DNA from: Candidatus Stoquefichus massiliensis AP9
GTDB taxonomy: Bacteria; Bacillota_I; Bacilli_A; Erysipelotrichales; Coprobacillaceae
Direction of reading: 5' to 3'
NCBI RefSeq assembly: GCF_000455285.1
Contig: NZ_HG005291.1
Location: 145,451-199,375 of the forward strand
Length of the DNA: 53,925 nt
The notes under the pieces are model-generated. The model searched no databases, was not told the origin of the DNA, and worked only from the letters and a program-made list of their open reading frames with translations. Below, one piece after another: positions 1 through 33,574 of the stretch. Numbering within the stretch: position 1 is the stretch's first letter; the number at the start of each line of letters is the position of its first letter. Position numbers and translations under genes: made by a program.

Positions 1-1261
1 TGGCAGCACGGAAAATGATACAACCTACACAAGTAATCCAAAATGTTCTTAAAATCTGAAATAATTGGAAAGCTTTCGACTTTGTATTGATATGTAAAGT
101 TTTATTCATCCAATTAAATACTGGTCTCATCATACCACTTATGGCAATTAATAAACCATAGAAAATTCCCCAAATGATGTAGTTCCAACTTGCTCCATGC
201 CAAACACCAACCAAAAAGAACACCAATAAATTTCCTAATGCGATAGGCAATGTTCGTCCAATATGTTTACCGAATTTTTTCTTTGCAAATTTCCCAAGTT
301 TAGAAACACTCTTTGTTAGTGAAAATGGGAAAAAAACATAATCTTTCATCCATGCACCCAATGACATATGCCATCTTCTCCAAAACTCTGAGACTGTCTT
401 AGAAAAATATGGTCTGCGGAAATTCTCTGCCATTGTAATACCCATTGTTTGAGCACAACCACGAGCAATATCAATACACCCAGAAAAATCTGTATAATCT
501 TGAATTGCATACATAAAAACACCAAAAACAACACCCATACCTGAAACATGAAAATAATTATCAAAGACATAGTTCGCAATGACCGCAGCACGATCAGCAA
601 TAATCATTTTCTTAAAATATCCCCACATCATCAGTTGCAAACCAAACTTAAGGTCCTCATAACTTGCTTTTTTAGGCGCATATAACTGTGGAGCTAAATC
701 CTTATAACGTCCAATTGGTCCTTGTAAAATCTGTGGAAAAAATGAAACAAACAAAGCAACCTTTGCTAAATTTCTTTCTGGTTTTACCTTTCCCCAATAA
801 ACATCAATCACATAAGACATTGTTTGGAACGTATAAAATGAAATACCCAAAGGTAAAATTAGATTTAATTTTGGTATATTGCCTCCAAATGATAAAGAAT
901 TCAATAAGTAATTTAAATTTTCTGAAAAGAAATTAAAATATTTCAAAACAAACAAAATACCAAAATTCAAAAGCAATAAACCAACCAACATTCTTTTACG
1001 TTGACTCTTTAAATGCTTCTTATCTTCCTTAGTCACACCGTCACTTTTCTCTAATTCATGCTGTTTCCCAATATAGAGAGCAGCTAAATAAGATGTGACT
1101 GTTGTCAAAATAATAAATATGCCAAATTTCGCACTCGCATAAAAATAAAAAAAGTAACTTGATGCTAATAAAAACATCCATTTCCATTTTGCTGGTACTA
1201 TAAAACTTCCAATCACAACGATTCCAAAAAAAAGAACAAATATCAATGTATTAAACGCCAT
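1..1261 (-). CDS. MBOAT-family membrane O-acyltransferase (3' end outside window)
   Basis: The reading frame is open from an ATG at 1261 to the window edge, giving about 420 residues without the C-terminus. It is a polytopic membrane protein of the AlgI/DltB class. The central part carries FWRRWHMSLG, and further on there is VGVWHGASWNY, where the WHG histidine is the usual catalytic histidine of the family. Family members transfer acyl groups (acetyl or D-alanyl) across the membrane to cell-surface polymers, usually with an SGNH/DltD-like partner. That partner would lie beyond the left edge and cannot be seen. The ribosome site GAGGGGAAGTT is close to the start. Substrate is unknown; dltB, algI-like and patA-like roles are all possible. 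Confidence 0.85.
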   Translation of the reverse strand, partial: MAFNTLIFVLFFGIVVIGSFIVPAKWKWMFLLASSYFFYFYASAKFGIFIILTTVTSYLAALYIGKQHELEKSDGVTKEDKKHLKSQRKRMLVGLLLLNFGILFVLKYFNFFSENLNYLLNSLSFGGNIPKLNLILPLGISFYTFQTMSYVIDVYWGKVKPERNLAKVALFVSFFPQILQGPIGRYKDLAPQLYAPKKASYEDLKFGLQLMMWGYFKKMIIADRAAVIANYVFDNYFHVSGMGVVFGVFMYAIQDYTDFSGCIDIARGCAQTMGITMAENFRRPYFSKTVSEFWRRWHMSLGAWMKDYVFFPFSLTKSVSKLGKFAKKKFGKHIGRTLPIALGNLLVFFLVGVWHGASWNYIIWGIFYGLLIAISGMMRPVFNWMNKTLHINTKSKAFQLFQILRTFWITCVGCIIFRAA

Positions 1262-25531: not shown

Positions 25532-28793
<3,262 letters not shown>

Positions 28794-28889
28794 AATATCC
28801 TCCATTTTGTTGTTTTTCGATCATTTTTTCCGGATTAACAATCTACAACAACAATTATAAGGGACATCTCACATAGTCACTATTGTTTT

Positions 28890-29544: not shown

Positions 29545-29700
29545 ACTCCACATGTAAAACATGTGGTATCTTGGATATCCATGTCTCATGAGGTTTCGTT
29601 TCGGTGCTGAGTATAACTCGCACTTCGTTTCCTAGACTGTGCCCTCGTCTATTGTTTTATAGAGTCGCTATATTGGCGGCTTTTATTATATTGATTGCTG
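29545..29700 (-). ncRNA. Presumed omega (right-end) guide RNA
   Basis: In IS605-type elements the TnpB guide RNA covers the tnpB 3' end and the right end of the element, with the guide reading into flanking DNA. Here the sequence between the tnpB stop (29657) and the right-end hairpin contains several possible stems, for example around GAAGTGCGAGTTATACTCAG. The guide would start in the AT-rich flank below about 29540. This is placed by analogy; the structure was not computed. Confidence 0.4.
29548..29566. repeat. Right-end hairpin of the tnpB element
   Basis: CCACATG pairs with CATGTGG around TAAAA. In the tnpB direction it lies about 90 bases after the stop codon, where the guide-RNA scaffold normally ends. 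Confidence 0.75.
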
Positions 29701-30775
29701 CATTGATGTCTCGATTATGTTTTGCTCCACACTGGCGACATTCCCATTCTCTTATACTGAGTTCCTTAACACCTTTATTGATATATCCACAAACATGACA
29801 TTTCTGTGATGTTGGTTCATACTGATTAATCCTGATGAACCTCTTTCCATACCACTCTGCCTTGTATTTTAGCATATATAAGAATCTTGACCATGATGCA
29901 TCAGATAGATTAAGATTACTGACCTTTCCATTCATCATTGATTTGATATCTAATGTTTCCACTGCAATAACATCATAATCCTCTATCAACTGTTTTGACA
30001 GTTTATGATAATAATCAGTTCTTTGATTTCTTATCTTTTTATGCAGCTTATGAACTTTCCTTCGCTGTCTTTCATAATTGTTGGATCCTTTTATCATCCT
30101 TGAAAGTTTCTGTTGTTGAACAATCAGCTTATCTAGTGTTGATGCATAGAATCTTTTATTGTCATAGATATCTCCATTACTTAATGTCAGCAGTTCACTG
30201 ATTCCTACATCAATACCAATACGCTTACCAGTTGATGGTAATGTTTCAACTGGTACATCTGTTGCACATATGGAAAGTGAGTAGTTTCCATCTCCATGAT
30301 CAATAACTGTCACTCTCTGTATATGACCCTCTATTTTTTGATAGAGTTTGGTTTTCACCCAACCAATCTTAGGAAGTCTTATACAATTATTACCAGTACG
30401 GATACAGTTGTTATTGTTCTTGGCAGTATAGGTACTATAATACCCTTTCTTCTTGAAACGAGGGAATCCCTTATGTTCATTAAAGAACTTCATAAAAGCC
30501 CAGTTCAGGTTTTCACATGATGATTGCAAAGCAACTGAATCCACTTCCTTCAAAAAAGAAAACTGTCCATCTTTTTTCATAAGTGTCAGCATATGAGATA
30601 TTTCATTCTTTGTATAAATATGGCCCTGATTGATCAAGTTGTTTTTTTGAACATCAAGGAAATGATTAAAGACAAGACGAACACATCCAAAGGTCTTTGC
30701 TAGCATTATCCTCTGAAGACAGTCAGGATATAAAGGAACACAGTATCCTCTAGTCACATAGTTAACAGACATCAT
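29657..30775 (-). CDS. tnpB: TnpB RNA-guided nuclease / IS605 OrfB
   Basis: A 372-residue protein with the helix-turn-helix start (CVRLVFNHFLDVQ), the OrfB core and a split RuvC nuclease. The catalytic residues are Asp in RIGIDVGISELLTL (about 190), Glu in VIAVETLDIKSM (about 278) and Asp in NRDINAAINI near the end. A four-cysteine zinc finger (CHVCGY then CRQCGA) sits before the last Asp. All three acidic residues are present, so the nuclease is probably active. TnpB cuts the empty donor site under guide-RNA direction and helps the element persist. Tandem ATGs follow GAGGTGAT, with a good promoter upstream. Confidence 0.93.
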   Translation of the reverse strand: MMSVNYVTRGYCVPLYPDCLQRIMLAKTFGCVRLVFNHFLDVQKNNLINQGHIYTKNEISHMLTLMKKDGQFSFLKEVDSVALQSSCENLNWAFMKFFNEHKGFPRFKKKGYYSTYTAKNNNNCIRTGNNCIRLPKIGWVKTKLYQKIEGHIQRVTVIDHGDGNYSLSICATDVPVETLPSTGKRIGIDVGISELLTLSNGDIYDNKRFYASTLDKLIVQQQKLSRMIKGSNNYERQRRKVHKLHKKIRNQRTDYYHKLSKQLIEDYDVIAVETLDIKSMMNGKVSNLNLSDASWSRFLYMLKYKAEWYGKRFIRINQYEPTSQKCHVCGYINKGVKELSIREWECRQCGAKHNRDINAAINIIKAANIATL

Positions 30776-32179: not shown

Positions 32180-33574
32180 TTATTTTTCAAGATAATCAAT
32201 ACATAGTTCTGTAATTCCACTTAACATATATGAAATAGGTTCCTTGATATAATAAAATTCAGGTAAAAATTCTTCAGAAATAAATGATTTTAGTTTATTC
32301 TTCACTTCATTTATGTCTGGCATCATAGGTGCATATAAGGCGACTGCTTCAGGTCCAATAACAGTTAAAGATGGTAATAATGATTTTGTGATTAATTCTA
32401 ATGTTCCCTGCTGAGTCCATGCTAATTTATGAACATCATCTGAAAGCTGCATACGTCTTAAAAAATACTTCACTTCACCAGCAACACCATTTTTTCCTCT
32501 AATGACTTTCCCATTCACAACGATTCCCTGACCACCTACTCCAAATCCAAATGGCTGAGAATGATAAATAACATTTTGATATTCAGGATGTTCTAATACA
32601 AATCCAACAGCTGCAGCATCAGCATTATTATACACAAATATATCAATATGATATTTCTTTTCAAAATCATTCTTCATATCAATCATCTTACCATCATTAG
32701 GTTCTTTAAAGACTTTGTTATCTTCTACAATTCCTGGTGTGGCTATACCAATGACATCAATATAAGAATGTTTCAATAATACCGTATCAATAATATCATA
32801 TAAATCATAAATATCCATTGAAGGTTTCATAATCACATGACTATCAATAATTTCACATTGATCATACAAACGATAAGTAATACGTGTTTGTTCGCCATTA
32901 ATCATAATCGCAATAGATAAAATTCTTTTTTCATATTCTGTACAGCAAACACAACAATCCTCTTCTTTTTCCTCTTCCTTTTCTTTATTTTGAAATTCCT
33001 GCTGAATAAATTGGATGGCCCCTAAGGCATCATATGATGCAAATACAGCAGTTGGAATCTGTAAAACCAATTTATTAGGTAAACTTTCTTTTAAACGATT
33101 AAACATATAACCAATTTGAGGAGCAATGAAAACAATATCATAATTTTGAACTTCTTCATAAATACTCAAATAAGACACTGCATCAAAATGATAATCTAAA
33201 CCTAGCATTTCAGCAACAGAATTTAAATTTTCTGCAAACATAGACGTTGTCAGACCAGCTGAACATGATAATAAAACTCTTAATGTTTTTTGATCTTTTA
33301 AACCAATCAATGTTTCAACCATCTCATCATATAGTTGTTTTGCATGATCTTCATCATTTAATTCAAAATGAAGATAGAATTTTACAGAGTGGTCTTTATC
33401 AAATGTTATTGTAAATTCAACAATTGTATTATTATCTATTTCTGTAAATTGAATAGATGCTTCACCATAATCTGTTTTCAACTTAATCAACTGATCATTT
33501 TCCTGACTGACATGATACTCCTCACTCTGATGTCCTAAAATCCATGTCTTAAAATCAAATGTTTCATTTGCCAT
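32180..33574 (-). CDS. Fusion of PTS EIIB (cellobiose/lactose type) and inactive ROK-like domain
   Basis: A 464-residue protein. Residues 1-95 form a beta-rich domain I do not recognise. Residues 98-195 look like a lactose/cellobiose EIIB: VLLSCSAGLTTSMF holds Cys104 where EIIB is phosphorylated. An acidic linker with a CCVCC cluster (207-211) follows. Residues 217-464 are ROK-like (IGIATPGIV, FGVGGQGIVVNGKV), but the DxGGT phosphate motif is absent. The catalytic Asp of xNDANAA is Asn317 (YNNADAA), and the zinc motif and GEIGH histidine are missing. So it is probably a sensor or regulator that combines PTS phosphorylation with sugar binding. It is transcribed alone. No EIIA or EIIC neighbour. 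Confidence 0.7.
   Translation of the reverse strand: MANETFDFKTWILGHQSEEYHVSQENDQLIKLKTDYGEASIQFTEIDNNTIVEFTITFDKDHSVKFYLHFELNDEDHAKQLYDEMVETLIGLKDQKTLRVLLSCSAGLTTSMFAENLNSVAEMLGLDYHFDAVSYLSIYEEVQNYDIVFIAPQIGYMFNRLKESLPNKLVLQIPTAVFASYDALGAIQFIQQEFQNKEKEEEKEEDCCVCCTEYEKRILSIAIMINGEQTRITYRLYDQCEIIDSHVIMKPSMDIYDLYDIIDTVLLKHSYIDVIGIATPGIVEDNKVFKEPNDGKMIDMKNDFEKKYHIDIFVYNNADAAAVGFVLEHPEYQNVIYHSQPFGFGVGGQGIVVNGKVIRGKNGVAGEVKYFLRRMQLSDDVHKLAWTQQGTLELITKSLLPSLTVIGPEAVALYAPMMPDINEVKNKLKSFISEEFLPEFYYIKEPISYMLSGITELCIDYLEK

Follow-up and report, generated by a model that had tools for sequence, protein, structure and literature searches.

Gene architecture and coding evidence

In the window, that is, the whole stretch of 53,925 nucleotides from Candidatus Stoquefichus massiliensis AP9 that was analysed, a gene on the complementary strand encodes a protein of 464 residues in which an N-terminal domain, a PTS EIIB domain and a ROK domain without HTH follow one another. 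Its parts are listed below, with the evidence used for each assignment given in brackets.

32180..33574, (-): whole gene, N-terminal domain, EIIB and HTH-less ROK, 464 aa (ORF, Pfam, AlphaFold2 model)
33290..33574, (-): N-terminal domain, residues 1-95, alpha-beta5-alpha, with an FYLHF motif that includes His69 (separate model, fold match)
32975..33289, (-): EIIB domain of lactose/cellobiose type, residues 96-200 (PF02302; 2wy2, Z 17.9)
33263..33265, (-): codon of Cys104, the presumed phospho-acceptor (Cys in 52/52 distinct fused proteins)
32927..32974, (-): linker, residues 201-216, with CCVCC at 207-211 (comparison of linker Cys across fused proteins)
32183..32926, (-): ROK fold without ATP motifs and without HTH, residues 217-464 (PF00480; fold match over 216..463; motif counts)
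32624..32626, (-): codon of Asn317, at the place of the ROK catalytic/sugar-contact Asp (alignment to ROK proteins)

The reading frame opens with ATG, and AAAGGAG lies 7 bases ahead of this start. Comparison with a 73% identical ortholog gave a dN/dS of 0.18 over the full length and of 0.16 in the ROK part, values which indicate a protein under selection; together with the fused copy found in 36 of the 43 genomes of the family, they rule out a chance ORF. An origin as a phage or plasmid gene was also rejected, there being no phage record and the sole plasmid match going to an E. coli chbB. Profiles of defence genes gave no match to the protein, and promoter-like sites around the gene were rarer than in shuffled sequence. 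The domain calls made with Pfam are shared by NCBIfam, but below the NCBIfam cut-offs. On scanning the protein against Pfam, neither a PRD nor an HTH, such as the N-terminal winged HTH of the ROK repressors Mlc, NagC and XylR, was matched at E up to 1, and no EIIA domain was found. The AlphaFold2 model, built from 29 aligned family members, has a mean pLDDT of 83.5 and a pTM of 0.57, at which the relative placement of the domains is uncertain.

The EIIB domain

The sequence-only reading had proposed an EIIB-like domain around Cys104, and both profile and fold bear this out. PF02302 (PTS_IIB) matches residues 99-177 with 39.8 bits against a cut-off of 23.6, and the corresponding part of the model superposes on the IIB-chitobiose structure 2wy2 with Z 17.9 and an rmsd of 1.2 over 103 of 103 residues, other EIIB matches being 1h9c (Z 17.6) and 1iib (Z 17.3). 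Cys104 is present in all 52 distinct fused proteins, as are Thr109 and Thr110 of the P-loop (each 52/52), and a Cys occupies the same position in 17 of 17 proteins that consist only of the N-terminal domain and EIIB. Mean pairwise identity is highest in this domain (0.45, vs 0.38 in the N-terminal domain and 0.40 and 0.36 in ROK). The genome holds 36 PTS_IIB places and 8 EIIA of the lactose/cellobiose class, and going by this class assignment any of these 8 could phosphorylate Cys104.

The N-terminal domain and the linker

Residues 1-96 modelled alone gave a pLDDT of 91.1 and the order helix, five strands, helix. The nearest solved fold is the TriTu immunity protein (7zhm_C, Z 8.6, rmsd 2.4, 78 aligned residues; the second row of matches has Z 8.1). 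The domain of the window protein matched none of the Pfam families, TriTu included, at E up to 0.1; a profile search of solved structures returned only 13-residue matches to repeat proteins, and Foldseek gave no match below E 0.4. Weak Pfam matches to TriTu were obtained in 6 of the 17 proteins of N-terminal domain plus EIIB only, the best at E 0.0028. His69 of the FYLHF motif is invariant in the 50 rows that have a letter there (52 rows in all). The window domain may resemble the TriTu immunity protein in fold, with weak profile matches in its relatives, but differs from it in having no profile match of its own and in being joined to EIIB wherever it occurs in the genome (6 of 6 places). It is possibly a TriTu-like interaction domain.

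The CCVCC motif noticed earlier in the linker was located at residues 207-211. At least one linker Cys is present in all 16 members of the clade that carries Asn at position 317, to which the window protein belongs, as against 2 of the 36 other fused proteins. The typical form of the linker motif in this clade is (H/C)C-x-(E/Q)-Y, and a metal or redox site is a possible role for it.

The ROK domain and its active site

ROK kinases are recognised by motifs that include DxGGT and ExGH. In the window protein PF00480 (ROK) matches residues 230-368 with 51.1 bits (cut-off 22.9), and residues 216-463 of the model align with complete ROK folds, the best of those cited being 6jdc (Z 22.0, rmsd 2.9, 233 aligned residues). 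The repressor Mlc is matched as well, both alone (1z6r, Z 17.6) and as the Mlc chain of the Mlc/EIIB complex 3bp8 (Z 18.1, rmsd 3.2, 241 aligned residues). Judging from the model, EIIB appears to stand where an HTH would be.

DxGGT, which 3 of 3 ROK kinases encoded by the same genome have, is found in 0 of the 52 fused rows, and compared with these three kinases the second, glycine-rich phosphate loop is missing from the fused proteins. Asn317 aligns to the D of ND in the same-genome ROK kinases and in solved ROK proteins. The full fold and the alignment to the kinases are thus in agreement with the earlier description of a ROK-like domain that has no DxGGT and has Asn317 at the catalytic Asp. 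At the ExGH His most fused rows have Tyr or Phe; the three control kinases lack this His too, so this site is not a discriminating test. Taking also the fold around Cys104, the two outcomes that had been named beforehand as telling against the sequence-only reading did not occur, as an EIIB fold is present there and the ATP site of the ROK part is not intact.

Of the 52 distinct fused proteins, 33 carry D at position 317, 16 carry N, 2 carry F (those of L082 and L085) and 1 carries E; Asn316 is kept in 52 and Glu367 in 50. All 13 HTH-bearing ROK relatives (HTH-ROKs) keep both the Asp and the Glu of the sugar site, and among the 36 fused proteins outside the Asn clade 33 keep the Asp and 34 the Glu. 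The 16 Asn317 rows form a clade with branch support of 100/100 in the ROK-domain tree. Since Asn317 occurs only in this clade and 33 of the 52 proteins keep Asp, the dead Asp does not define the family. The label "catalytically dead", in so far as it refers to the Asp-to-Asn change, describes a trait of one clade (16/52) and is not supported as it stood; the ATP motifs are lost in 52 of 52 fused proteins.

The ATP motif is likewise absent in at least 12 of the 13 HTH-ROK relatives, the 13th (L086) being aligned too short at that place to be judged. As these relatives are already without the ATP motifs, the fresh death of a kinase gene is ruled out, and the pattern fits descent from a ROK repressor. 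From the alignments, the loss of the ATP motifs belongs to the repressor lineage and the loss of Asp is a change within the window's clade.

Split two-gene forms and the origin of the fusion

Eight regions (L088-L094 and L095) were chosen because both halves looked separate in them. L095 turned out to be a broken copy and not a split pair. In the seven others (L088-L094) the first gene encodes the N-terminal domain plus EIIB (203-230 aa) and the second, on the same strand, a ROK protein (309-337 aa), with intergenic gaps of 0, 3, -14, -4, -1, -29 and -4 bases. In these ROK proteins 60-80 residues precede the ROK part, placed as an HTH of the Mlc/NagC kind would be. With HTH_24 this stretch scores above the cut-off in L090 and L093, and sub-threshold matches were obtained in L089 and L094; in the remaining ones the HTH search gave no match in L088 and none that is convincing in L091 and L092. 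In four genomes of one genus (L096-L099) the gene for the N-terminal domain plus EIIB is kept in a similar gene order and the HTH-ROK gene, which adjoins it in related genomes of this genus, is missing, so EIIB does not always need ROK. We also scanned for CcpA sites with the cre consensus. A cre-like promoter site was seen in 3 of the 7 split operons (L089, L090 and L094, all of one genus), none in L088, which is the fourth split pair of that genus, and none upstream of 50 fused genes and of 2 more with a late start.

In the ROK-domain tree (66 rows, including the 52 fused proteins and 13 HTH-ROKs) a branch with support of 99/96 separates all fused rows from the 13 HTH-ROKs. By profile score the HTH-ROKs of the split pairs are nearest to the fused proteins, with 238-269 bits vs 55-169 for the other six HTH-ROKs. 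Because the tree is rooted at its midpoint, on a very long branch, we infer, and do not prove, that the HTH was lost and not gained; on these alignments a fusion accompanied by loss of the HTH requires the fewer assumptions.

Distribution and paralogs

The genome itself has three full-length fused copies, of which the other two are 33-35% identical to the one in the window, and three genes for the N-terminal domain plus EIIB only. HTH-ROKs of the same wider group are also present in it (L014, L102). In its family, Coprobacillaceae, all 43 genomes give some match at 1e-25, and a single match spanning both halves (query start up to 60 and end from 370, at the same threshold) is present in 36 of the 43, the exceptions being G007, G008, G009, G034, G037, G038 and G042. 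Of the 196 genomes of the order, 59 match at 1e-40 (41 of the same family and 18 of a second one); in a phylum sample 19 of 392 genomes match, all 19 of the same order. On scanning named genomes we obtained 38 loci, nearly all in Coprobacillaceae or Erysipelotrichaceae (genera Thomasclavelia, Massilimicrobiota, Longibaculum, Sharpea, Kandleria and Eggerthia); among these loci L087 is an EIIB match only and L086 is an HTH-ROK. The same scan matched one Atopobiaceae MAG contig, whose gene has a G+C content of 64% in a contig of 67% and is therefore not a low-GC contaminant; this copy is likely a transfer. The survey of how widespread the architecture is, which had been suggested at the outset, thus points to a fused family that is hardly met outside a single order of gut bacteria. 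As a separate observation, a further, incomplete copy of the ROK C-terminus lies in genome G001 at L019:1552-1920, about 6 kb from the ortholog (L017).

Genomic context

The gene had been described as single, with no EIIA or EIIC beside it. None directly adjoins it, but a glucoside-type PTS gene with EIIA, EIIC and EIIB domains (26973-28805, (-)) is found 3.4 kb from it, on the far side of a transposase gene; moreover, the description as a single gene applies here, whereas relatives have the split pairs and a few PTS or signalling operons. The transposase gene between the two (29657-30775, (-)) is of the IS605 OrfB/TnpB type with a Cas12f-like TNB domain. Adjoining the glucoside-type EIIBCA gene is a GH1 glucosidase in two pieces (25553-27022, (-)), of 130 aa (profile positions 4-100) and 335 aa (127-452), which is probably a broken gene. 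Upstream of the window gene lie genes for a ferredoxin-domain protein and for an FMN reductase, in the same order as in L050, so in both of these linker-Cys loci flavin or iron-sulphur genes adjoin the fused gene.

We found no fixed neighbour across 36 fused loci. Their 51 close co-directional neighbours are mostly housekeeping or unrelated genes (AAA_22 in 5, HAD hydrolases in 4), and with no dominant family among them a conserved operon with PTS genes is ruled out. Individual loci do have sugar or signalling genes nearby. The paralog L011 of the same genome follows an RpiR-type regulator, a GH1 glucosidase and a cytidylate-kinase-like gene on one strand; the fused gene of L062 begins 13 bases behind a canonical EIIB; and in L101 a gene for the N-terminal domain plus EIIB comes after GH1 and is flanked by a canonical EIIB and an RpiR regulator. 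In L082 and L085 the fused gene has an SDF-domain gene on one side and a STAS gene on the other, the genes overlapping or being only a few bases apart, and the set continues with SpoIIE/HATPase in L082, where this was examined; by its gene content this neighbourhood is a partner-switching signalling set. It was also observed that L010-type paralogs are followed by a P-loop gene of 142-144 aa (L109:9256-9684, L063, L064, L065, L066, L068, L072 and L084). The one examined, in L109, matches PADLOC BrxF at 7e-21, and the others are of the same size and in the same place.

Proposed function and alternatives

Our preferred reading, to which we give a probability of about 0.5, is that the window protein serves in signalling in response to the PTS and is a relative of a ROK transcriptional repressor. 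For Mlc it is established that this ROK repressor is bound and sequestered by dephosphorylated EIICB-Glc (PMC3901232). By analogy we propose that in the split pairs an EIIA encoded elsewhere in the cell would set the phosphorylation state of the EIIB cysteine, and that this state would decide whether the HTH-ROK repressor is sequestered or released, in the way that EIIB-Glc acts on Mlc. The occurrence of the two halves as a tight gene pair in the split loci and as one chain in the fused family is classic evidence for interaction, and it is on this basis that we read the protein as a sensor of the EIIB phospho-state with the ROK part as its reader, in cis in the fused proteins. With EIIB in the place of the HTH and the HTH gone, the output of the fused form would probably be protein-protein and not direct DNA binding, for example through mixed oligomers with HTH-ROK repressors or through contact with PTS permeases. 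In the window's clade the loss of the presumed sugar-contact Asp together with the gain of linker Cys suggests the EIIB state, and not sugar, as the main input. Hence, of the earlier proposal that a sugar-binding ROK fold acts as a sensor, the preference for signalling over a kinase role is supported, while sugar sensing is least certain for this very copy, whose clade may have lost it. Several points speak against such a switch: no output domain was recognised in the window protein, no operon partner is conserved across the 36 fused loci, the EIIB is of another class than EIIB-Glc, the binder of Mlc, and for several split ROKs the HTH matches are weak, those of L091 and L092 being the most doubtful.

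The fully conserved EIIB fold and cysteine would also suit a working transport EIIB that passes phosphate to sugar on an unlinked EIIC, with the ROK part only tuning affinity or positioning the protein near a permease. Beta-glucoside genes adjoining L011 and some genes of N-terminal domain plus EIIB only, and the many unlinked PTS genes of the genome (its PTS_IIB places and 8 PTS_IIA), are in line with this. But there is no consistently linked EIIC, the operons of L062 and L101 already have a canonical EIIB next to the gene, and the ROK half, although unneeded for transport, is strongly selected (dN/dS 0.16); we consider this reading unlikely. The complete ROK fold without HTH, in a genome that also encodes HTH-ROKs of this wider group (L014, L102), would also allow a pseudo-repressor that titrates HTH-ROKs via mixed oligomers, with EIIB phosphorylation secondary or absent. 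As this leaves the invariant EIIB cysteine and P-loop unexplained, it seems to us quite unlikely. A phosphotransferase in which the ROK pocket binds the sugar and the EIIB phosphocysteine, instead of ATP, donates the phosphate is highly improbable despite the loss of ATP motifs in 52/52, the kept sugar-site Asp (33/52) and Glu (50/52) and the EIIB in cis, for the window protein itself has no Asp and 13 of 13 HTH-ROKs keep the same residues, where regulatory sugar binding suffices; we give equally little credit to a division in which the Asp-bearing members would be a soluble PTS enzyme without EIIC and the Asn317 clade a non-catalytic signalling offshoot.

Comparison with known systems

The window protein can be compared with known systems of several kinds. 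With ROK kinases (NanK, GlcK) the ROK part has in common the whole fold, Asn316, Glu367 and the PG motif, and it differs from them in lacking DxGGT, the second phosphate loop and the ExGH His and in having Asn317 for Asp. ChbB, the EIIB of the chitobiose/cellobiose PTS (1iib, 2wy2), has the same fold and cysteine loop as the window EIIB at 26-28% identity, but the latter sits in a three-domain protein with no linked EIIA or EIIC. PTS regulators that contain PRDs (MtlR, LicR, CelR) have an EIIB domain within the regulator and sense the PTS state, whereas the window protein is without PRD, EIIA and HTH. No description of a ROK/EIIB fusion was found in the titles and abstracts of the open-licence literature; EIIB in regulators (PRD) and EIIB-ROK pairs (Mlc) are known, and the joined HTH-less form appears to be new.

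A close parallel is the pair of Mlc and the EIIB-Glc of PtsG in E. coli, a ROK-fold regulator without an ATP site that has an EIIB partner in its control, as is proposed here. The differences are that the EIIB here is of the lactose/cellobiose fold class and is fused in cis or encoded by the preceding gene, and that the HTH is missing from the fused form; in addition, the cysteine pattern of the zinc site was seen in no row. The fused form has been repeatedly duplicated in one order of gut bacteria with its DNA-binding part gone, which suggests that Coprobacillaceae have a level of sugar signalling so far unstudied, for example in the PTS-rich genome considered here, with its 36 PTS_IIB places. 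Mlc-type control by EIIB is known as a matter of two proteins; here it would be contained in one operon and in one polypeptide, and the latter would offer a natural single-chain system for how a ROK fold reads the phospho-state of EIIB.
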